Positions 4,249 to 54,944 of a DNA stretch of 64,000 bases are shown piece by piece (positions within the stretch are counted from its first letter, which is position 1; each line of letters opens with the position of its first letter). Origin of the DNA: Terriglobia bacterium (GTDB lineage Bacteria > Acidobacteriota > Terriglobia > Terriglobales > Acidobacteriaceae). The position numbers were made by a program, and so were the translations under genes. Location of the stretch: positions 248,001 to 312,000 of the forward strand of contig JAIQFD010000002.1 in NCBI GenBank assembly GCA_020073495.1, read 5' to 3'. The notes under the pieces were generated by a model. The model did no database searches. It saw only the letters and a list, made by a program, of their open reading frames with translations, and was not told where the DNA came from.

Positions 4249-5175
4249 GTGGGCTACTTCCTGGGCATTGACGGCGGGGGTACCAAGACGGACTGCGCGG
4301 TGGGCGACGAGCACACCATCCTCGGGCGGGGGTCCGCTGGCACAGCGAAGCTGTCGCGCGTGAGCGAGGAGCAGGCCGGCGTCAACCTGCGCGCCGCCAT
4401 CGAGCAAGCCTGTGCCGCCGCCGGGATAAAGCCCGCGATCCTCGACCGTACCTGCTACGGCCTGGCCGGAGCTTCGAATCCCAAGAATGCCGACGCCGCT
4501 CGCCGTCTCATCGCTGCGACCGTAGGAGGGCAGATCGAGTTCGTCGGCGACATGGCTATCGCCCTCGAAGCGGCATTTCCGGCGGACTCTGGCGTGGTCG
4601 TGGTCGCGGGGACCGGTTCGATCGCCTACGGACGTAACGAGCGCAACGATACCGCGCGCGCCGGTGGCTGGGGCCCGGTTGTCTCCGACGAAGGGTCTGG
4701 CGACTGGATCGGGCGCGCCGCCGTCTCCTTGGCCCTGCGCGCACACGATGCCGGCGAGACCACCAGCTTCCTTCCTGCCATCATGAACACCTGGCATCTC
4801 GCCACGTACGACGACGTTGTGCGCTTCGTCGGCTCGACTCCGCCGCCTGACTTCGCCGCACTGTTTCCGCACGTTGCCGAGCACGCGAATCAGGGCGACG
4901 ATCTCGCCCGCGGCATCTTGCTGCGTGCCTCCGGAGAGCTCGCCGAGCTCTGCCACATCGTCCTGCGCCGCCTGTGGCCGAACGAGAAGGCCTCCACCGA
5001 GGTTGCCATGTGCGGCGGCATTTTTCGCAATTCGGCGATCATCCGGGAAGCCTTCACCGAAGTGGTCCGCAGCCGCCGGCCGCATGTGCGCGTCAGTCTC
5101 AGCGAACGCGAACCGGTCGAGGGTGCGCTCGCGGTCGCCCGTCGCAAGGCTCGCCCATCGAGTATTTTCGGCTGA
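4249..5175 (+). CDS. BadF/BcrA-family ATPase, N-acetylglucosamine kinase-like
   Basis: 308-residue ASKHA-fold protein of the BadF/BadG/BcrA/BcrD family, in the subgroup that includes N-acetylglucosamine kinases. The phosphate-1 motif FLGIDGGGTKTDCAVGD is at residues 4-20, the phosphate-2/adenosine region VVVAGTGSIAYG at about 117-128, and GGWGPVVSDEGSGDWIG follows as in GlcNAc kinases. It lacks the Fe-S cysteines of the dehydratase activators. The start is GTG 4249. The next gene begins two bases after its stop. The divergent symporter/permease operon suggests amino-sugar or cell-wall fragment use, but the substrate is an inference. Confidence 0.85.
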   Translation: MGYFLGIDGGGTKTDCAVGDEHTILGRGSAGTAKLSRVSEEQAGVNLRAAIEQACAAAGIKPAILDRTCYGLAGASNPKNADAARRLIAATVGGQIEFVGDMAIALEAAFPADSGVVVVAGTGSIAYGRNERNDTARAGGWGPVVSDEGSGDWIGRAAVSLALRAHDAGETTSFLPAIMNTWHLATYDDVVRFVGSTPPPDFAALFPHVAEHANQGDDLARGILLRASGELAELCHIVLRRLWPNEKASTEVAMCGGIFRNSAIIREAFTEVVRSRRPHVRVSLSEREPVEGALAVARRKARPSSIFG

Positions 5176-45575: not shown

Positions 45576-46857
45576 ACCCGACCGGCATCACACGGGTTGG
45601 CATGCGAACGTCGGCCAGGAACGGATACAGGCCGATGAACGTCACGATCGCTAATACCAGCAAAAGCCACTGTCCCCAGCGCACGAACCGGTATTCTCCC
45701 CAGTGCTGAAAGACGTACGCGAGGGCAATGCCCAGGGTCATGGCGGCCGGGTAATAGTAGTAATAGAAGGTCAAGTGTCGCGGCACCCACGTCCAACAAA
45801 AGTAGAGAGCGGCCCACCAGGCGAATGCAAAGAAGGTGGCGCGGCTGCGGTCGCGCAGCCAGTGCCACAGGCAGATCGCCAGCGCGATCAGTCCTCCCCA
45901 CATCACCACCGGATTCCCCAGCAGGATGACGCCGCGCCCGTACTCGATGTCCTCCGGATCGGCCTCGTAGGCGTACCACATCGGGCGCCGCGTCGCCGGC
46001 CACTGCCACCAGAAGCTGCTGTACGGGTGCCACCGCTCCACCGTTGCATGCGCGTGCACGATGTCGCGCTGCATGCGCACCAGTCCGGACCAGGACGCAT
46101 TCGGCCCCGGCACCCAGCGCAGCGGGACGAAGGTTGCCGAGTACACGATCACCGGGAGCACGACCAGGCAAACCACCAGGGAGCCCCAGCCGACGTAGCG
46201 AAAAGTTTCCGGTGTGTACCATTCCTCGATGTCTGGCCGGCGCGCGCGGAAAAGCGTACTTCCGGCGTGTTGCAGGATCCGGACGAACACGATCCCAACC
46301 AGCGAGAACGCCCACGCCGCCAGCGCCACCCACTTGCAGGCCATCCCTAAGCCGAACATCAGGCCGGCGATCAGGAGCAAGCGGTTGGATTGTCTCTTAT
46401 CATGTGCGGCCCACAGCGCGCACACGGCGACCATGCCGAACAGCGTGAAGGCAAACATGAACACGTCGAGCATGGCGATACGCCCGGTGACGAACAGGAA
46501 TGCGTTCACCATCGTGAGCAGAGCCACCCAGATCGCGGTGCTTTCGCGGCGGAAGATCAGGCGTGCCCACAAGTAAATACCGACCAGGGTGAGCGAGCCG
46601 AAAATGGTCGGCATCAGGCGCCAACCGATCGGCCGATCCCCCATCAGGCGTATTCCCACAGCGATGAGGTACTTCCCCAGCGGGGGATGTTCATAATTCG
46701 TGTTTGACGAGCGTTCCAGCAACGCGCGAGCGGCTCTGACGTAGTGAACCTCGTCGAAATTCACTTGCTCGGGGTACTGGATGTGGATCAGCAGCAGGGC
46801 TTCCGTTGCAGCGAACAGGACGATGCTGGTGAGAATGACCCGCCGCGACGCGCTCAA
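45574..46857 (-). CDS. Membrane glycosyltransferase, GT39/PMT-like
   Basis: 427-residue GT-C enzyme with about ten membrane helices. The first loop carries the acidic motif FDEVHYVRAARALL (about residues 34-47) and NYEHPPLGKYLIAVGI, as in protein O-mannosyltransferases and ArnT-like enzymes that use polyprenyl-phosphate sugars. The start is TTG 46857 in a four-base overlap with the cyaY stop. The acceptor (protein or lipid) is unknown. Confidence 0.88.
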   Translation of the reverse strand: MSASRRVILTSIVLFAATEALLLIHIQYPEQVNFDEVHYVRAARALLERSSNTNYEHPPLGKYLIAVGIRLMGDRPIGWRLMPTIFGSLTLVGIYLWARLIFRRESTAIWVALLTMVNAFLFVTGRIAMLDVFMFAFTLFGMVAVCALWAAHDKRQSNRLLLIAGLMFGLGMACKWVALAAWAFSLVGIVFVRILQHAGSTLFRARRPDIEEWYTPETFRYVGWGSLVVCLVVLPVIVYSATFVPLRWVPGPNASWSGLVRMQRDIVHAHATVERWHPYSSFWWQWPATRRPMWYAYEADPEDIEYGRGVILLGNPVVMWGGLIALAICLWHWLRDRSRATFFAFAWWAALYFCWTWVPRHLTFYYYYYPAAMTLGIALAYVFQHWGEYRFVRWGQWLLLVLAIVTFIGLYPFLADVRMPTRVMPVG

Positions 46858-47186
46858 GTCAGCGTGACCGCCTGCTCGCCGAGCTGCTCGTTGATCAGCC
46901 GCGCCATCAGGGCCTTTAGCCGCTCGCCCGTCTTGGTGAAGACAAAATCGTTGGCCGCATCCGACCAGTCAAGCTTGAAGCTGGTGGAGAGTGCGGAGAT
47001 CCATATCTGTCCGGTCGCCGACTGCGGCGAGATGACGAACTTCGCCGGCGGGTCTTCGAAGCAGATGTGCAGCGCCCCGGCCTGATCTTCCACTTCGATG
47101 TCGGCCTGGTCCTCAGCCGCCATCAGGCTGCGCTTCAGCGACTCCAGGGCTGCATCGGCCTTGCGCCGGAAATCCTGCTCGTCCAT
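46854..47186 (-). CDS. cyaY: Frataxin-like iron protein CyaY
   Basis: 110-residue protein with the frataxin alpha-beta pattern: acidic first helix (MDEQDFRRKADAALESLKRS), strands DIEVEDQAGALHICFED and KFVISPQSATGQIWISA, then FKLDW and the last helix (ERLKALMARLINEQLG). The QIWIS and following aromatic strand match CyaY/frataxin. It regulates cysteine desulfurase in Fe-S assembly. Its stop overlaps the glycosyltransferase start, but the pairing has no obvious functional link. Confidence 0.82.
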   Translation of the reverse strand: MDEQDFRRKADAALESLKRSLMAAEDQADIEVEDQAGALHICFEDPPAKFVISPQSATGQIWISALSTSFKLDWSDAANDFVFTKTGERLKALMARLINEQLGEQAVTLT

Positions 47187-47243
47187 GGGACAAATTATAG
47201 AAGACAGCTCAGTGCCAAACTACGGACAACCAAAGTCCCCGGC

Positions 47244-48494
47244 CTAAATTACTTTGTCGACTCTTACCTTCGTGAAATACGGCTTGCCGTTGCGAAGTAC
47301 ATATGTGAACCGCAGCCGAGCCTCATCCAGCGCCAATTCGAAAACTCCGTGTTGTCCTGGCTTGATTGAGCGGAAGGTGTTCAACATACCCCAATAGAAT
47401 CGATCCTCTTTTTCGGATTCGTTCGGCTGCTGATTCTCGCTGCTTATTTCCTGCATGACGCGCTTAATGGTTGAAACCACGTCTGGTCGCGCGAGACCTG
47501 CCGTGTCTGCGCCTGCGCTGATTTTGGAGAGCAACTCGTCTGCCCATTCCATTTCCGGCTGAAGGAATCTGTGCCCAAGATCCTGTACATCCTTCGGAGT
47601 GATCCGGATAGTCCAAATCCCGCGCGGTTCCGGACACCCTCCACATGAAGAGAACGACTGGGTTTCCTCTTTGGTCCCGATTCGCAGCATCTTTCCGTCG
47701 AAACGAAACGTGCCGTCGTCCCAAGTGTAGTGATAGGTCTTGATCAACAGCGGCAACGCCTCAAAACCGTTCCATTCCCAAACGCTCAATTGAGCAAGAG
47801 CCGTTCCCCCATGCGCTGATTGAAATGCGTCCACGAGGAACCGCGGATGACCGTTAAACGCCGGCGAGAGTGCCAGGACCTTTCTAACATCTAGCGGACC
47901 GTTGTAGTAGGCGCGACGGGTAAGGTGTACCCATCGGCCGATCTCGTCTCTCTGGGCATAGTGTTTTTCGGCTAAGTCCTTGATGTTCCATCGAGCCCGA
48001 AACCTGCCATTTCGATCGTGCGCTACGACGAAGAAGGTCCCAGTGTCATTGTCCATCCAGTAGTGAGCCTGGGCGACGTAAACGGCTGGCGCAATACGTG
48101 TGACGCTGCCCTCGAAGCAGTAGGTGTGATACTCGAAGAAGTCGCCATATTGGGATTTCACGCCCTTGGGCTTGGGGGCAAAACCATCGAATATGGTCTT
48201 CAATTCACGAGCCGTCGGCGCAGGATGGCTTTCGAGATACGCAGCAGCCCATTGCCCAGCGAGGTTCCAGCCACTTTTCAGGAGTGCTGGGACTTGGTCG
48301 TCATCTAGCTCGACTGGGCCCCCCTTGTCTCCCTTAGTATTCAATTCGTCGAGGATGTATTGGTGCTCAGCCCTTAAGTGAGCAAACGTTTGACCGGACT
48401 GATCAGCATTTGCGAATGCTATTGGGAACAGGGAGAGCAAGACACCCAAGATACCTGCCACAAGGCGACCGGCGCGCAACTGCAAGTTCTTCAT
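47244..48494 (-). CDS. Exported protein of unknown function
   Basis: 416-residue secreted protein with signal peptide (GILGVLLSLFPIAFANA). Folded region has many aromatic residues (FFEYHTYCFEGSVTRIAPAV, AQAHYWMDNDTGTFFVVAHD, YHYTWDDGTFRFDGKMLRIG) and a paired-Cys segment SFSSCGGCPEPRG. No family is recognised. GC is lower than in neighbours, hinting at later acquisition. ATG 48494 fits the signal peptide. Confidence 0.75.
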   Translation of the reverse strand: MKNLQLRAGRLVAGILGVLLSLFPIAFANADQSGQTFAHLRAEHQYILDELNTKGDKGGPVELDDDQVPALLKSGWNLAGQWAAAYLESHPAPTARELKTIFDGFAPKPKGVKSQYGDFFEYHTYCFEGSVTRIAPAVYVAQAHYWMDNDTGTFFVVAHDRNGRFRARWNIKDLAEKHYAQRDEIGRWVHLTRRAYYNGPLDVRKVLALSPAFNGHPRFLVDAFQSAHGGTALAQLSVWEWNGFEALPLLIKTYHYTWDDGTFRFDGKMLRIGTKEETQSFSSCGGCPEPRGIWTIRITPKDVQDLGHRFLQPEMEWADELLSKISAGADTAGLARPDVVSTIKRVMQEISSENQQPNESEKEDRFYWGMLNTFRSIKPGQHGVFELALDEARLRFTYVLRNGKPYFTKVRVDKVI

Positions 48495-48556
48495 GCGGGA
48501 ATGTCCGTACACAGCAGCGCAGAGGTGCGCCTCACGCGGCGCCCGCTGCGTCCACC

Positions 48557-49051
48557 TTAGAACGGAATATCTTCGTCCGTGATACCCGTGGCTTGCGAAG
48601 CCTCTTCGTGTTGCGGGCGCTGGTCCACGTTGCCGGCTCCGGCGGCGGCTCCGGCGGCGGCCCCGGCCCCGGCGCCGCGCGACCGTCCGCCGCCGCCCTC
48701 GTCGCCTTCGCCCCGTCCGCCGCCCAGCAGCACCAGGTTCTCCACCACGATCTCGGTGCGGTACTTCTTTTCGTGGGTGTTCTTGTCTTCCCAGGAGTCG
48801 GTGCGCAGGCGCCCCTCGATGTACACCGTGCGTCCCTTCTTCAGGTACTCGCCGGCGATTTCCGCCGTGCGTTGCCAGGCCGTGATGTTGTGCCACTCGG
48901 TGCGGTCCTGCCAGTTGCCTTCTTTGTCTTTGTAGCGCTCGTTGGTGGCCAGGCTGAATTTCGCCACGGCCGTGCCGTTGGGCGTGTACTTGACCTCGGG
49001 ATCCTTCCCCAGGTTTCCGATCAGGATGACCTTATTGACGCTCTTGGCCAT
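48557..49051 (-). CDS. ssb: Single-stranded DNA-binding protein
   Basis: 164-residue SSB. OB fold at 1-110 (VNKVILIGNLGKDPEVKYTP, VAKFSLATNERYKDKEGNW, GRTVYIEGRLRTDSWEDKN), a Gly/Ala-rich linker and the acidic tip DEDIPF that recruits repair and replication proteins. It coats ssDNA in replication, recombination and repair. Confidence 0.97.
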   Translation of the reverse strand: MAKSVNKVILIGNLGKDPEVKYTPNGTAVAKFSLATNERYKDKEGNWQDRTEWHNITAWQRTAEIAGEYLKKGRTVYIEGRLRTDSWEDKNTHEKKYRTEIVVENLVLLGGGRGEGDEGGGGRSRGAGAGAAAGAAAGAGNVDQRPQHEEASQATGITDEDIPF

Positions 49052-49539
49052 GAGGGCGGCTCCGATCTATGTAAAGTTGCGAGCACTATACCAGTTGATT
49101 CCCCTCGTGGCACGGCTACTCGGCGGCTTTCCTTCGTACCCCTCCCTGCCTGCCTTCCTGTCCTTTGTGGTGAGGTCTTTTGTGTGTTCGCTGAATAGTT
49201 CACCAGCATGTCAAGAAATCGACTGTCACCGCGGCTTTCCCACCACCAGCGGCCCCACCATGCGACGTAAGTCACTGATATAACGAAACTTCCAATCCCG
49301 CTCAAGGTTCTGCCGCGCCGTTTGAACCCCTAATTCCCGCCGTTCGCTACAAAGTCATTAGAAATTAAGGGGTTCCGCTGAAAAAATGCCCGCGTTGGAT
49401 GGTGGGGGCCCCAGCCACGGTCGTTAGTCGAGCCGTGGCGATTGTGTGGGCGTCCGACCCACGCCTTAGGACTGCCGCGACCGGGCGACTGGTCGAACCA
49501 ACAGATTTCAGTCCCAAAAGGGGACAAAAGGTGGAGGAA
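49052..49539 (+). other. 488-base gene-free leader of the dehydratase pair
   Basis: No coding frame. The first 220 bases hold the divergent ssb promoter area; the last 220 bases hold a series of short stem-loops described in the next entry. A promoter for the downstream genes must lie here, but I cannot name a -10/-35 with confidence. Confidence 0.6.
49325..49525 (+). promoter_or_regulatory. Hairpin-rich 5' leader (possible RNA regulator)
   Basis: Successive stems: AACCCCTAATT/AATTAAGGGGTT (49325-49335, 49363-49374), GCCACGG/CCGTGGC (49414-49420, 49433-49439), GTGGG/CCCAC (49446-49450, 49458-49462), GACC/GGTC (49479-49482, 49491-49494) and GTCCC/GGGAC (49511-49515, 49521-49525). The last is three bases from the ribosome site. 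It matches no riboswitch class I know. Confidence 0.45.
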
Positions 49540-51312
49540 ATGAGCACTTCGACGCATCCGGCACCCAGTCAGGGATTGATTCAGATTCAGTCCATCGAAG
49601 ACATGATCCGTCAGCGTGTGACAGAAGAGCGCGCGCGCCTCGAAAAAGAAGCCGGGCTGGTGCAAAAGGAAGTGCATCACTTCCATAAGCCCATCGAGCG
49701 CGGCTTTACCGCCGACCAGCGCCACAAGACCACCCTGCTCTTTGGCGGCCTCACCTGGAAGCACGAAAAGCTGGTCCATGGCGCCCTCGAAGGCCTCGGC
49801 TACCGCTGCGAGGTCGTACCCACGCCGGACGTCAAGGCGTTCCAGCTGGGCAAGGAATACGGCAACAATGGCCAGTGCAACCCGACCTACTTCACCGTCG
49901 GCAACGTGGTGCAGTACCTCCAGAAGCTGGAAGAGTCGGGCATCAAGCGGGAAGACCTGATCAACAACTACGTCTTCCTGACCGCCGGCGCCTGCGGCCC
50001 CTGCCGCTTCGGCATGTACGAGGCCGAGTACCGCCTGGCCCTGCGCAACTCCGGCTACGACGGCTTCCGCGTCATGCTCTTCCAGCAGTCGGGTGGACTG
50101 AATCAGTCCGACGCCGAGGCCGGCCTGTGCATGAACCTCGACTTCTTCCTCAACCTGCTCAACTCGCTGAACATGGGCGACATCATCAACGAAGTCGCAT
50201 ACCAGATCCGGCCCTTCGAGCTGGAAGCCGGCGCCACCGATGCCATGCTCGACGAAGTCATCGACTACATGCACGAAGTGCTGAAGAAGAAGTCGCCGTG
50301 GTCGGTCGAGAAGCAGCTCGGCAAGCTCGGCTCCAAGGTCCCGATGAAGGGCACCGTCGAGTACCTGGGCAAGTTCCTCAACCAGCTCTACAGCGACGAC
50401 TACACCACCGCGCTGGAGCATGTGCGCGGCCGCTACGACTCCATCAAGGTGGACCGCTTCCGCGTGAAGCCCATCGTCAAGATCACCGGCGAGTTCTGGG
50501 CGCAGACCACCGAAGGCGACGGCAACTTCAACATGTTCCACTTCCTGGAGAAGGAAGGCGCGCAGATCATCGTCGAGCCCATCGGCACCTGGATCATGTA
50601 CATGATCCACCAGGTGGTGCAGAAGATCCGCGACACCAAGGGCCTCGAAGAAGGCGCGGTCATGCCTCCGGCGTGGCGCATCGACAAGCAGGCAAAGATC
50701 GAGTGGAGCTACCGCCAGCGCCTGATGAAACTGAAGGCCGCCGAGGTCATCTTCGCCCGCGAGTACCACAAGATCATCGACGCGCTGGGCGGCACGGCCC
50801 ACCGGCTCGTGAACCAGTACGAACTCCAGCGCCTCGGCCACCCCTACTACAACTCGCGCGCGGGCGGCGGCGAAGGCCATCTCGAAGTGGCGAAGAATAT
50901 CTACTACTCGAACAAAGAGCTGTGCCACATGGTGCTCTCTCTGAAGCCCTTCGGCTGCATGCCTTCCACGCAGTCCGACGGCGCGCAGTCGGCCGTGGTG
51001 GCGCACTACAAGGACATGATCTTCCTCCCCATCGAGACCTCGGGCGAGGGCGAGATCAACGCCCACAGCCGCGTGCAGATGGCGCTGGGCGAGGCCAAGG
51101 CGAAAGCCAAGCTCGAGTTCAAGGACGTGCTCGAGAAGCTCGGCAAGACAGTGGAAGAGCTGAAAGCCTACGTGGCCCAGCATCCGGAGATGGAGACCGC
51201 GCTGTATCACGTGCCCAAGTACAAGAGCGTGATCGGCACCGCGGCCAACTTTGCCATCCACGTGGCCGAGAAGATGGGCGCGCAAGTTCCGTACCACGCC
51301 GAAGCGCACTAG
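49540..51312 (+). CDS. 2-hydroxyacyl-CoA dehydratase D (HgdB/BcrB)-like protein
   Basis: 590-residue cytosolic protein of the 2-hydroxyglutaryl-CoA dehydratase component family in the wide sense. Conserved Cys-containing stretches are NGQCNPTYFTVGNVVQYL, LTAGACGPCRFGMYEAEYRL and KPFGCMPSTQSDGAQSAVV, likely [4Fe-4S] ligands. ATG 49540 has AAGGTGG five bases upstream; GTG 49531 is an alternative. It is followed after 47 bases by its putative ATP-dependent activase. Substrate unknown: these proteins include dehydratases, benzoyl-CoA reductases and double-cubane reductases. Confidence 0.8.
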   Translation: MSTSTHPAPSQGLIQIQSIEDMIRQRVTEERARLEKEAGLVQKEVHHFHKPIERGFTADQRHKTTLLFGGLTWKHEKLVHGALEGLGYRCEVVPTPDVKAFQLGKEYGNNGQCNPTYFTVGNVVQYLQKLEESGIKREDLINNYVFLTAGACGPCRFGMYEAEYRLALRNSGYDGFRVMLFQQSGGLNQSDAEAGLCMNLDFFLNLLNSLNMGDIINEVAYQIRPFELEAGATDAMLDEVIDYMHEVLKKKSPWSVEKQLGKLGSKVPMKGTVEYLGKFLNQLYSDDYTTALEHVRGRYDSIKVDRFRVKPIVKITGEFWAQTTEGDGNFNMFHFLEKEGAQIIVEPIGTWIMYMIHQVVQKIRDTKGLEEGAVMPPAWRIDKQAKIEWSYRQRLMKLKAAEVIFAREYHKIIDALGGTAHRLVNQYELQRLGHPYYNSRAGGGEGHLEVAKNIYYSNKELCHMVLSLKPFGCMPSTQSDGAQSAVVAHYKDMIFLPIETSGEGEINAHSRVQMALGEAKAKAKLEFKDVLEKLGKTVEELKAYVAQHPEMETALYHVPKYKSVIGTAANFAIHVAEKMGAQVPYHAEAH

Positions 51313-51359
51313 ACAGTCTGACGACTGAGAACCGACAACCGAGATCGACTGGAGACTGA

Positions 51360-54300
51360 ATGCCGGGACTGACCGAAAAAGCGGATCGCAACAAGCGTTA
51401 CGAGATGCTTTGGATGGGCGTTGACGTGGGCTCGACCACGGTGAAGGTCGTCGTCATCGACGGCAACACCGACGACATTCTCTGGGCGGACTACCAGCGC
51501 CACGACACCAAACAGCCGGAGAAGGCGCTGGAGATGTTGAAGGCCATCGAGGCTGACTTCCCCAACACGCCTCCGGAGAATTTCCGCGCGTTCATCACCG
51601 GTTCGGGCGGCTCGGGCATCTCCAAGCACATCGGCGCGAAGTTCGTGCAGGAAGTCAACGCCGTCTCCCTCGCGGTGGAGAAGTTGTACCCGGAATGCGG
51701 CTCGGTCATCGAACTCGGCGGCCAGGACGCGAAGATCATCATCTTCAAGGAAGATCCAGAGACGGGCAAGAAGAAGAAGCTGCCCTCGATGAACGACAAG
51801 TGCGCGGGCGGCACCGGCGCCGTGATCGACAAGATCAACGCCAAGCTTCGTATTCCCTCCGACCAGCTCTGCGGGATGGGATACAAGGGCCTGAAGCTGC
51901 ACCCGGTCGCGGGCAAGTGCGGCGTCTTCGCCGAGACCGACATCAACGGCCTGCAGAAGCAGGGCGTGCCGCCGGACGAACTGATGGCCTCGCTGTTCGA
52001 ATCCATCATCCAGCAGAACCTTTCGGTGCTGACCCGCGGCAACACTCTGCGTCCGACCGTACTGCTACTCGGCGGCCCCAATTGCTACATCAAGGGCATG
52101 CGCGATTGCTGGAAGCACAACATCCCGAAGATCTGGGAAGAACGCAATTACCCGCTGCCCGAGGGTGTCGATCCCGAAACCCTCATCAAGACGCCGGATA
52201 ACGCGCAGTACTTCGCTTGTATCGGCGCGGTCGAGTTCGGCAAGCAGGAAGATCCCGGCATCGGCTTGTACGTGGGCTACTCCAAGCTGGAGTGGTACAT
52301 CACCGAAGGCCGCAATATCGAAAAAGCCAAGAAGGGTACCGCCCAGGCATTGGCGAAGGACCCCGACGAGCTCGCAGCCTTCAAGACGAAGTTCACGAAG
52401 AAGAAGTTCATCGCCACTACCTTCCAGCCCGGACAGGTGGTGGAAGGCTTCATCGGCATCGACGGCGGATCGACCTCGACCAAGGCTGTGCTGGTCGATA
52501 AGGACCGTAACATCCTTTGCAAGACCTACCAGCTCTCCCGCGGCAACCCCATCGAGGACACGCAGGAAGTTCTCGCCAAGGTCGCCAAGCAAGTCACCGA
52601 TCAGGGCGCGACGCTCAATATCTTGGGCGTCGGCACGACCGGCTACGCCAAGGACATCCTGAAGGACGCGGTCGGCGCCGACGTGGCGCTGGTCGAGACG
52701 GTCGCGCATACCCAAGCCGCGCTTCACTTCTATCCCGACGCGGACGTGATCTGCGACGTGGGCGGACAGGACATCAAGATCATCATCCTGAAGGACGGCC
52801 GGGTTAAGGACTTCAAGCTCAACACCCAGTGCTCGGCCGGCAATGGATACTTCCTCCAGGGCACCTGCGAGGGCTTCGGCTTCAAAGTCGAGGAATTTGC
52901 CGATCTTGCCTTCAACGCCAAGGGCTTCCCACAATTCGGCTACGGCTGCGCGGTGTTCATGCAGTCCGACATCGTGGATTTCCAGCGCCAGGGCTGGAAA
53001 CCGGAAGAGATCATGGCCGGCCTGTGCAACGTGCTTCCCAAGAACATCTGGCTGTACGTTTCCCAGATCCCCAACCTGTCGGCGATCGGCAGCAAGTTCG
53101 TTCTCCAGGGGGGCACGCAGCACAACCTCGCGGCGGTGAAGTCGCAGGTGGACTTCATCGAGTCGCGCTTCAAGGGCAAGGAAGTTCAGCCCGAGGTCAT
53201 CGTGCACCAGCACTGCGGCGAAGCCGGCGCCATCGGCTGCGCCTTCGAGGCAGTGCGCCTGTGGGAGAACGGCAAGACCACGGAGTTTGTCGGCCTCGAC
53301 AACGTCGCGTCCATCACTTTCACCACCACGCGCAACGAGGACACGCGCTGCTACTTCTGCAAGAACAAGTGCCTGCGCACCTTCATCGACGTGAAGACCG
53401 CGGTGCCGAACCCGAGCTACAAGGGCCCGGCCAAGACCAAGGTCCCGCTGGCCGAGGGCGCTCAACGCCTGATCATCGCCACCTGCGAGAAGGGCACGGT
53501 GGAGAACGTCGAAGAGATGCGCGTCATCAAGGGCAACATCGACGCCATCAAGAAGGAGAACCCGAACCTGGTCGAGATCGCGGCCAAGTCGGCGTTCAAG
53601 AGCTACGAGCCCCCGATGGTGGCCGACCCGCTGCCCAAGCTGCAGTTCACGGCAGCGCAGAAGAAGCGTGTGGAACTGATGAAGAAGCGCGCCGAACTGA
53701 AGATCGGCATGCCGCGCGCCCTCAACATGTACAGTTGCGGGCCCTTCTTCACCGCCTACTTTGAGTCGCTGGGCGTGAAGGCCGACAACCTGCACTGGTC
53801 GGAGTTCACCAACGAGCAGCTCTACAAGGAAGGCGCGAAGCGCGGCGCCATCGATCCGTGCTTCCCGTCCAAGGTGGGCATCCCCCACGTGCACAACCTG
53901 CTCTACTCGGTGCACCCCAAGAAGCAGCTCGACATCATCTTCTTCCCCATGATCGACGCGCTGCCCACCTTCCTGGTGAACACGCAGTCCAGCCGCGCAT
54001 GCCCGACGGTCACCGCGACCCCGGCATCGGTCAAGGCGGCCTTCACCAAGGAGGGGAACCTCTTCGCCGAGAAGGGCGTGATCTGGAAAGACACGCTGAC
54101 CTGCCTGGATAATGAGGTCGTCCTTTCCCGCCAGATGTACGACGATTGGAAAGACGTTCTCGGCCTGAGCGAGGAAGAGAACTTCCGCGCCTGCAAGGAA
54201 GGCCTGGCGGCGATGCGCAAGTTCGACAACGACATCATGCGCGCCACAGCCCGCGAGGTCCTCAAGCGCCTCGAGGCCGAGAATCGCCTGGGCATCGTGC

Positions 54301-54944
54301 TACTGGGCCGTCCGTACCACAACGATCCCGGCATAAACCACGAGATCCTGGAAGAGTTCCAGAAGCTCGGCTACCCGGTCTTCTCGCAGGATTCTCTGCC
54401 GCTGGATGACGAGATCATCTGGCGCCTTTTCGGTGACGAAGTGAAAGCGGGCATCATCCAGCACCCGCTCGACGTCTCCGACGCCTGGAAGAACTCCTAC
54501 TCGGAGAACACCACGCGCAAGGTTTGGGCGGCGAAGTACATCGCCCGCCATCCCAACCTGGTGGCCTTGGAGCTCTCCAGCTTCAAGTGTGGTCATGACG
54601 CTCCCATCTACACCGTGATCGAGGAGATCGTCGAGCACTCGGGCACGCCGTACTTCTGCTTCAAGGACATCGACGAGAACAAGCCGACCGGCTCCATCAA
54701 GATCCGTGTCGAGACCATCGGCTACTTCCTCAAGCGCTACCGCGAGGACATGGTGCGCAACAAGCAGAAGCACCTGTCCATCGAGGAGCAGCTCAAGAAG
54801 TTCGAGGAACAGCTCCGCGCCGAGCTGACCACCGCCGACAAGTTCCGGGGGGTGGATCGCCCGGCGGTCGACGCTCTGGTCAACATCGCTCCGCCTCCAC
54901 AGGGCGCGGAGACCGGCGAGCTGGCCCATTTGAGCGGCGATTAA
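51360..54944 (+). CDS. Fused CoA-dehydratase activase (two BadF domains plus DUF2229)
   Basis: 1194-residue protein. Two ASKHA activase domains: first at about 15-310 (WMGVDVGSTTVKVVVIDG, VIELGGQDAKIIIF) with cysteines in MNDKCAGGTGAV and GKCGVFAETD; second at about 360-640 (GFIGIDGGSTSTKAVLVD, ICDVGGQDIKIIIL) with TQCSAGNGYF and FGYGCAVF. Then CYFCKNKCLRTF at 664-675, and DUF2229/HgdB-like parts from about 783 (MPRALNMYSCGPFFTAYF). Homodimeric activases bind one [4Fe-4S] and hydrolyse ATP to drive low-potential electrons; here the two protomers are fused. GGAG is five bases before ATG. Confidence 0.88.
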   Translation: MPGLTEKADRNKRYEMLWMGVDVGSTTVKVVVIDGNTDDILWADYQRHDTKQPEKALEMLKAIEADFPNTPPENFRAFITGSGGSGISKHIGAKFVQEVNAVSLAVEKLYPECGSVIELGGQDAKIIIFKEDPETGKKKKLPSMNDKCAGGTGAVIDKINAKLRIPSDQLCGMGYKGLKLHPVAGKCGVFAETDINGLQKQGVPPDELMASLFESIIQQNLSVLTRGNTLRPTVLLLGGPNCYIKGMRDCWKHNIPKIWEERNYPLPEGVDPETLIKTPDNAQYFACIGAVEFGKQEDPGIGLYVGYSKLEWYITEGRNIEKAKKGTAQALAKDPDELAAFKTKFTKKKFIATTFQPGQVVEGFIGIDGGSTSTKAVLVDKDRNILCKTYQLSRGNPIEDTQEVLAKVAKQVTDQGATLNILGVGTTGYAKDILKDAVGADVALVETVAHTQAALHFYPDADVICDVGGQDIKIIILKDGRVKDFKLNTQCSAGNGYFLQGTCEGFGFKVEEFADLAFNAKGFPQFGYGCAVFMQSDIVDFQRQGWKPEEIMAGLCNVLPKNIWLYVSQIPNLSAIGSKFVLQGGTQHNLAAVKSQVDFIESRFKGKEVQPEVIVHQHCGEAGAIGCAFEAVRLWENGKTTEFVGLDNVASITFTTTRNEDTRCYFCKNKCLRTFIDVKTAVPNPSYKGPAKTKVPLAEGAQRLIIATCEKGTVENVEEMRVIKGNIDAIKKENPNLVEIAAKSAFKSYEPPMVADPLPKLQFTAAQKKRVELMKKRAELKIGMPRALNMYSCGPFFTAYFESLGVKADNLHWSEFTNEQLYKEGAKRGAIDPCFPSKVGIPHVHNLLYSVHPKKQLDIIFFPMIDALPTFLVNTQSSRACPTVTATPASVKAAFTKEGNLFAEKGVIWKDTLTCLDNEVVLSRQMYDDWKDVLGLSEEENFRACKEGLAAMRKFDNDIMRATAREVLKRLEAENRLGIVLLGRPYHNDPGINHEILEEFQKLGYPVFSQDSLPLDDEIIWRLFGDEVKAGIIQHPLDVSDAWKNSYSENTTRKVWAAKYIARHPNLVALELSSFKCGHDAPIYTVIEEIVEHSGTPYFCFKDIDENKPTGSIKIRVETIGYFLKRYREDMVRNKQKHLSIEEQLKKFEEQLRAELTTADKFRGVDRPAVDALVNIAPPPQGAETGELAHLSGD

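Follow-up and report, generated by a model that had tools for sequence, protein, structure and literature searches.

We analysed a gene pair, P1 and P2, in a window of 64,000 nucleotides from a Terriglobia bacterium (GenBank assembly GCA_020073495.1, contig JAIQFD010000002.1, positions 248,001 to 312,000 of the forward strand). We favour, with moderate confidence, the reading that P1-P2 is a split, divergent, ATP-driven iron-sulfur reductase that would convert ester to ether bonds in glycerol membrane lipids. Its substrates are probably lipids, membrane-spanning or iso-C15, whose synthesis involves Tes or Tes-like radical S-adenosylmethionine (radical-SAM) enzymes. Architecture and cysteines give good support to membership of the PlsA/PlsR-Ger family, as a divergent member; the function is inferred. 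According to PMC8788747, PMC11150832, PMC12838417 and PMC13274423, the relatives have been found experimentally to form ethers: PlsA/PlsR converts diacyl lipids to vinyl ethers, and the products of Ger, a PlsA-like enzyme that has two activase domains, are alkyl ethers. We base the ether-lipid reading on the PlsA-type architecture, 14 of 15 shared cysteines, the homology of P1 and these ether-forming relatives, and also on linked Tes-like genes, Tes in the same genome, co-distribution of the pair with Tes and with a radical-SAM partner, and the comparison of genomes that we take to be Edaphobacter aggregans and Koribacter versatilis.

The two genes lie on the same strand, 47 bases apart, and their coordinates, strand and lengths were correctly given in an earlier sequence-only note (the original prediction; Table 1). 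The mechanically called open reading frame of P1 begins at 49399 and has 637 amino acids (aa), but the 590-aa product is likelier because close homologues (e.g. at loci L049 and L052; L-numbers denote loci, G-numbers genomes and g-numbers genera) begin MSTSTHP, and because AGGTGGAGGAA stands directly 5' of the ATG at 49540. A purine-rich stretch compatible with a ribosome-binding site precedes each gene. P2 had been described as a 1194-residue fusion of two activase protomers with an HgdB-type part, and a Pfam scan bore this out, finding two BcrAD_BadFG domains (PF01869, E 5.6e-74, two stretches) and DUF2229 (PF09989, E 1.5e-44, residues 781-1013). The generic NCBIfam activase model, TIGR00241, matched P2 at 216 bits (cut-off 125). 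The best matches of P2 among PDB sequences were activators of hydroxyglutaryl- and hydroxyisocaproyl-coenzyme A (CoA) dehydratases, a benzoyl-CoA reductase and a double-cubane protein, and the AlphaFold2 model of P2 (mean predicted local distance difference test score, pLDDT, 80.0; predicted template-modelling score 0.68) had activase chains at ranks 1-10 of its structural matches.

P1 had no match in Pfam, NCBIfam or PDB sequences, and a P1 profile likewise found none among PDB chains. With the P1 model (mean pLDDT 80.6), Foldseek ranks 1-18 were all chains of benzoyl-CoA reductase, 2-hydroxyisocaproyl-CoA dehydratase or double-cubane proteins, with a best E of 1.7e-4, four chains at E <= 0.001 and template-modelling scores to the target of 0.29-0.45. 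VIA gave a best Z of 8.7, with a root-mean-square deviation of 5.2 over 285 residues (3o3n_B), and unrelated chains from Z 7.2. Since the VIA Z values are near the background of the tool, we gave more weight to the profile homology of P1, and we did not count absence of a family from the VIA list as exclusion. Judged by family, the assignment of P1-P2 to the hydroxyacyl-CoA dehydratase/benzoyl-CoA reductase superfamily, as a predicted ATP-driven reductase working at low potential, is supported. An ATP-driven low-potential reduction of unknown kind had been proposed originally; the type of reductase holds, but "unknown" was too open, as the PlsA/PlsR-Ger family reduces lipid esters.

We next compared the pair with related systems, which we class as A (the clade of P1-P2), B1 (a second split type) and fused (single-gene PlsA-type references). 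P1 aligned with the C-terminal domains of PlsA-type proteins and with the B1 partners at an hhalign probability of 99.9 (E 1.6e-36). The Listeria protein, which we call PlsA-type on the strength of its architecture and of PMC9702350, shows the Pfam order PF01869 twice, DUF2229 and a C-terminal part without a Pfam name; the order across P1-P2 is identical. In a FastTree tree the pair formed a clade of its own (A plus A3, support 1.0), with A-clade identities to PlsA-type proteins of 27-30%; no PlsA or Ger with demonstrated activity is among the references. The literature searched, with supplements outside its coverage, held no paper setting the A clade apart. Table S5 of PMC10087280 lists PlsAR homologues of S. 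usitatus, among which the pair may already be included.

A strict plasmalogen synthase, whose product would be an sn-1 vinyl ether and not a saturated alkyl ether, would fit the midpoint-rooted tree, in which the A clade is closer to PlsA-type proteins (those of Listeria, Collinsella, Haliovirga and Acetoanaerobium) than to B1, and PMC13274423 describes PlsA and Ger as inseparable by sequence alone. We consider such an enzyme unlikely: both activase domains of P2 are intact, a feature that PMC13274423 ties to alkyl ethers, and the ether lipids that the cited literature names for acidobacteria are glycerol alkyl ethers.

The original prediction had proposed an alignment check of the cluster-binding cysteines, which proved to be conserved. 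In P2, two cysteines per activase protomer (C148/C187 and C491/C530), four in the linker (C664, C667, C671 and C709) and three in the DUF2229 half (C834, C881 and C1077) were kept in 67 of 67 sequences; in P1, C113, C155 and C473 were present in all 93 sequences and C152 in 92. The 590-residue partner had the length and position ascribed to it, but its description as Cys-rich fell away, as P1 has only seven cysteines in 590 aa, four of them conserved. We then aligned 47 systems (33 A, 3 A3, 5 B1 and 6 fused), a chosen subset of those retrieved. Fourteen of the 15 conserved cysteines of the pair (the four activase, four linker and three DUF2229-half residues, and three in P1) were common to B1 (5/5) and to the fused references (6/6, except C667). 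All four linker cysteines occurred in 5/5 B1 systems, and C667 was present in four of the six fused references and missing in two. The fifteenth, P1 C152, was found in 32/33 A and 3/3 A3 systems and in one fused reference; the corresponding residues are T, S, Q, D and D in B1 and G, I, G, C, F and R in the fused references.

These counts bear on the proposed likeness to double-cubane cluster proteins (DCCP), which did not survive. According to PMC11971306, the [8Fe-9S] cluster of BzdN is held by six cysteines and is otherwise so far found only in DCCP, and the single cubane of BzdO is held by three (C95/C128/C380). We rejected a double-cubane assignment for the HgdB-like halves of P2 and P1, which have three (C834, C881 and C1077) and four (C113, C152, C155 and C473) conserved cysteines versus six. 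Neither protein matched the NCBIfam double-cubane model NF040772 at E 0.01, and both activase protomers lie within P2, not in a separate activase homodimer; NF040772 did match a BcrC-like protein of the same genome, at 138 bits, below its cut-off. Four single cubanes would be the simplest cluster count for the pair. A reductase of double-cubane-like type, acting on a small molecule or an unknown substrate, shares the fold family with P1-P2 (Foldseek 7yzm and 6eno; VIA Z 7.8-8.4), and most loci have no linked substrate gene, but the cysteine counts, the fused activase and the links to lipid genes at some loci make it improbable.

Turning to the ether-lipid reading, we infer cluster types, electron order, substrate and product as follows. 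A ferredoxin, either P4 or one reduced by a 2-oxoacid:ferredoxin oxidoreductase, would pass one electron to a linker cluster on C664/667/671/709. The intramolecular activase pseudo-dimer, with a cluster on C148/C187/C491/C530, would use ATP to lower the potential of the electron, which would then reach the clusters in both HgdB-like halves (C834/C881/C1077 and C113/C155/C473). There, an acyl ester would undergo single-electron reduction, protonation and dehydration to a vinyl or alkyl ether.

Relatives of P1 occurred in 362 stretches of the named genome collection, of which we kept 80 as named loci. Most of these 80 carry the label Terriglobia, Bryobacterales or Acidobacteria; the labels Dadabacteria, Zixibacteriota, Neomarinimicrobiota and Acidimicrobiia account for a few. 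At 75 of the 80 loci P2 lay behind P1 in the same orientation, which, together with the number of relatives, indicates that the pairing is more than chance. Two of the five loci lacking P2 (L115 and L122) lie near a contig end; at the others (L051, L086 and L109) the P1 homologue is followed by 2 to 10 kb of sequence with no P2 behind it. In a plasmid collection, five records carried distant PlsA-type proteins.

We then surveyed 395 genomes of the phylum, each at least 90% complete, scoring A at >=39% identity to P1 and B1 at >=48% identity to the B1 partner of the genome from which the window comes (G000). A was found in 35 genomes (only partial or in pieces in G212, G334, G343 and G369), split B1 in 19, and Tes above its cut-off in 34. 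Tes was present in 13/35 genomes with A versus 21/360 without (p 5.6e-7, phylogeny uncorrected), and accompanied B1 in 14/19 (p 6.1e-13, kinship uncorrected). G000 itself has tandem radical-SAM genes for Tes (574 bits to NF045702, cut-off 450) and a Tes-like protein (326 bits, below the cut-off) at L162 (11817-16000, G000:C7), a sign of tetraether or other membrane-spanning lipids in that genome.

Gene neighbourhood was examined at 115 loci, 106 of them with P1; not all are distinct, as L035 and L050 coincide. A Tes-like gene was found at four loci, one of which is L162, the Tes locus of G000; it stands beside the pair on the same strand at L112, L114 and L119 (3/102 A loci) and in G384, where the order is acyl carrier protein (ACP), acyl ligase, a gene on the opposite strand, Tes-like, radical SAM, TetR, P1 and P2 (split in two). 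A TetR gene also lies directly upstream of pls in E. faecalis, as described in PMC9702350, and downstream of the Collinsella PlsA-type gene. To gauge the Tes-like link we used 62 control proteins, of which nine matched at least three A loci. The Tes-like protein matched three of the 102 A loci, Tes itself cross-matched the same three, and the radical-SAM partner matched nine, versus zero to two for other radical-SAM proteins of G000 (29 searched); the other six controls at three or more loci were one regulator and five window genes near the pair, which matched close relatives. The Tes-like link exceeds its peers but is not overwhelming.

The radical-SAM partner, of the SPASM type and with no specific NCBIfam name, adjoins the pair (between, before or after its genes) at nine of the 115 loci, in one subclade. 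In G000 it is unlinked to the pair (L177 9534-10637, G000:C2:474533-475633), and this copy has no N-terminal extension of the kind found in a linked copy. Within the family of the window, it was present in 9/10 genomes with A versus 0/40 without; in genus g80 it tracked the fused homologue instead (6/8 vs 0/19). The tie to the pair is strong in some lineages and not general.

Genus g35 provides a comparison among close relatives, with a P1 match in 11 of 62 genomes, two of these only partial or in pieces. In G195 (C1:695077-695766) a DUF2229 match lies in a 750-aa frame without P1, and in G343 (C7:12531-14245) P1 is in two pieces without DUF2229. These are likely remnants, as if the pair were being lost in g35. 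Another g35 genome, G478, has DUF2229 in one gene only, which belongs to the pair and neighbours P1 and the radical-SAM partner. G478 alone in g35 has two full-length squalene-synthase matches (107 and 100 bits, both under the model's cut-off of 287), against one such match in five others; PMC5462960 gives E. aggregans two fdfT copies. We take G478, which is flagged for 8% contamination, to be E. aggregans, which is reported to make ether-bound iso-diabolic acid and branched glycerol dialkyl glycerol tetraethers (brGDGT), more at low O2, and to have one Tes homologue, of 32% identity (PMC13274423, PMC8941075). In G033, which we take to be K. versatilis, Tes scored 586 bits and no DUF2229 was found; K. 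versatilis is reported with tetraesters and is named as the top bacterial Tes (PMC8941075).

Several observations weigh against an ether-forming role of the pair in lipids made with Tes. The identity of 27-30% to PlsA-type proteins is too low to assign a substrate, and the ether-forming activity is predicted. Within the window, none of the genes beside the pair was recognised as a lipid gene, the loci with a linked Tes-like gene are few, with L112 and L119 being sister sequences, and both P3 and P4, the genes following the pair, occur at a minority of loci only. In 22 of the 35 genomes with A, no Tes scored above its cut-off. Any Tes or Tes-like protein was present in 32 of these 35, a figure that partly reflects lineage, as such proteins occur in about 210 of the 395 genomes; and of about 84 families sampled, 13 had A and 14 had Tes by a hand count, with both in only four versus about two expected. 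The radical-SAM partner was missing, at the threshold applied, from 22 of the 35 genomes with A, and occurred in 14 genomes without the pair, seven of them without any family member. The species names of G478 and G033 are our own assignments, and the uniqueness noted for G478 applies to DUF2229 genes, not to Elb genes or Tes. Above all, and this is the weakest link, B1, which G000 has too, tracks Tes better than the pair, so B1 may perform the ether step and the pair something else, or the two may differ in the lipid, position or condition on which they act.

B1 in G000 is a second fused-activase pair, of 1015 and about 430 aa (L029 7571-11928, G000:C4:67570-71927), and its type tracks Tes across the phylum. 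B1 is the likelier canonical Ger of this genome. In G219 a B1 pair adjoins Tes on the same strand (L187, G219:C20, 9949-16183), which gives genomic support to a Ger role for B1, and at L050 (Acidobacteriales) an A pair and B1 are divergent neighbours. We searched for second systems in 36 named genomes with A (36 of the 80 loci), classing B1 by match span and frame length and excluding G477, whose extra match has the A-type span. B1 was found in 14, Tes in 15 and both in 12 (p 2.6e-5). The pair could instead perform another lipid or peptide modification, serving the radical-SAM/SPASM partner or P3 and leaving the ether step to B1. The better tracking of Tes by B1 and the occurrence of P3 at 22 of the 115 loci would fit, as would the nine loci where the radical-SAM gene adjoins the pair and its co-distribution in the family of the window. 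Yet five genomes (G196, G248, G338, G344 and G413) have the pair and Tes without B1 or a fused homologue, and G478 has no further DUF2229 gene; we regard this alternative as quite improbable.

Action on a CoA thioester was also considered. In G000 a class I benzoyl-CoA-reductase-like operon precedes the window by 12-21 kb (L028 2047-10580, G000:C2:227046-235579), containing VorB/KorB-like proteins, a BadH-like short-chain dehydrogenase/reductase, BcrC/BcrB-like proteins and two activases, then a Rieske-type oxygenase; all Bcr subunit models matched there below their equivalog cut-offs. For P2, the benzoyl-CoA reductase A/D/Q models (TIGR02259, TIGR03192 and TIGR02261) were far below cut-off, and P1 matched none. 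A known CoA substrate deduced from the neighbourhood was a rejected candidate, with none recognised among the shared neighbour families listed, some of which were Pfam-scanned. A 2-hydroxyacyl-CoA dehydratase or aryl-CoA reductase is therefore very improbable: the superfamily and activase models match, as does the fold (HadB/HadC and BzdNO), but the shared neighbours included no recognised gene for a CoA-transferase or for ring opening, an acyl ligase and ACP lie near the pair only in G384, and the genome has the separate operon for that role.

For the remaining neighbours, no conserved enzyme stood beside the pair at most of the 115 loci, and no CoA-transferase was recognised among neighbour families common to at least four loci (some Pfam-scanned). 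Substrate-linked genes had been called absent for the pair; among its relatives, too, no substrate gene is conserved beside it, and the suggested survey of gene neighbourhood and phylogeny gave a distinct clade and no substrate gene shared by most loci. A glyoxalase-fold VOC protein was found at 12 loci, between P1 and P2 in 11 of them, ferredoxin P4 at nine, and a 2Fe-2S protein at six. KorAB occurred at four, one of which, L028, is not an A locus; at L106, L111 and L117, KorAB and the 2Fe-2S protein lie directly upstream of P1, a linkage that suggests a source of low-potential electrons. P3, whose family is roughly 100 aa long, had no Pfam or NCBIfam match, and was present in 10 of 45 named loci with at least 1.5 kb after P2. 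A Pfam scan of the flanking window genes covered those for a single-stranded-DNA-binding protein (SSB), frataxin, P3, the ferredoxin and a Ser/Thr kinase; the frataxin-like CyaY and SSB genes (46854-49051) lie shortly upstream of the pair on the opposite strand. A tRNA scan of the window found none, and promoter and terminator scans gave no signals above chance. Positions 4261-5130 encode another protein with PF01869 (BcrAD_BadFG), 311 aa long; our guess is a sugar-kinase-type relative, not an activase.

Table 1. Features of the P1-P2 locus (positions in the window; G000 coordinates where given).
Feature	Position	Strand	Genome coordinates	Description
P1	49540..51312	+		590 aa; second HgdB-like half (PlsR-like domain)
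P1 C113 (GQCNPTYF)	49876..49878	+		Candidate cluster ligand; Cys also in B1 and fused references
P1 C152-G-P-C155	49993..50004	+		C155 family-wide; C152 typical of A clade
P1 C473 (KPFGCMPS)	50956..50958	+		Candidate cluster ligand; kept in 11/11 B1 and fused references
P2	51360..54944	+		1194 aa; activase twice, Cys linker, DUF2229
P2 activase protomer 1 (PF01869)	51417..52076	+	G000:C2:299417-300076	Cluster Cys C148, C187
P2 activase protomer 2 (PF01869)	52452..53231	+	G000:C2:300452-301231	Cluster Cys C491, C530
P2 linker C664-x2-C667-x3-C671...C709	53349..53486	+		Likely extra [4Fe-4S] site
P2 DUF2229	53700..54398	+		First HgdB-like half; C834, C881; C1077 downstream
P3	55355..55669	+		Small conserved protein, 104 aa; next after P2; true start may be about 55370
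P4	55722..56102	+		Ferredoxin-like, two Cys clusters; possible electron donor; Fer4-type matches below cut-offs

Branched GDGTs serve widely as proxies for temperature and pH, and PMC13274423 and PMC10087280 describe the formation of acidobacterial ether bonds as still hypothetical. The pair is a concrete, cloneable candidate for the missing ether step in these climate-thermometer lipids. It is the only DUF2229 protein of the genome that we take to be E. aggregans, and g35, with 11 carriers among 62 genomes, offers a natural test. A likely acidobacterial role would thereby be given to DUF2229, which Pfam still labels uncharacterised. More tentatively, and with less confidence than we place in ester-to-ether reduction as such, the split clade with its extra cluster cysteine C152, working with a radical-SAM/SPASM partner of its own and a coupling enzyme of Tes-like type, may constitute a third way for bacteria to make ether lipids, in addition to Elb and the known PlsA/Ger branch, and be responsible for brGDGT-type ether bonds in acidobacteria without another family member, such as E. 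aggregans.

Among known systems, class I benzoyl-CoA reductases and (R)-2-hydroxyacyl-CoA dehydratases resemble P1-P2 in fold, in the activase and in three-Cys [4Fe-4S] sites (BzdO), but the CoA-linked gene context was not seen for the pair and their family models scored far below cut-off. DCCP/DCCP-R shares the fold family and an activase partner, and the substrate is not known for either; unlike it, P1-P2 has no six-Cys subunit (BzdN has six per subunit) and has its activase fused instead of a separate dimer. Ger (Thermotoga maritima, Desulfatibacillum alkenivorans), compared by description, is proposed for the ether bonds of membrane-spanning lipids and shares the two activase domains of P2; a control search found DUF2229 in T. 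maritima, and by co-occurrence with Tes, B1 of G000 is a nearer match to Ger than P1-P2. PlsA/PlsR, the known plasmalogen synthase (Clostridium perfringens CPE1195/1194; a single gene in Enterococcus, Lactococcus and Bifidobacterium), is like the pair, as seen in PlsA-type relatives, in its two activase domains, Cys linker, DUF2229, unnamed HgdB-like C-terminal domain and conserved cysteines. P1-P2 differs from it in sequence (the identities being to the Listeria, Collinsella, Acetoanaerobium and Haliovirga proteins, not to that of C. perfringens), in its longer partner of 590 aa with the extra C152, and in being mostly acidobacterial and near Tes-like genes at some loci.

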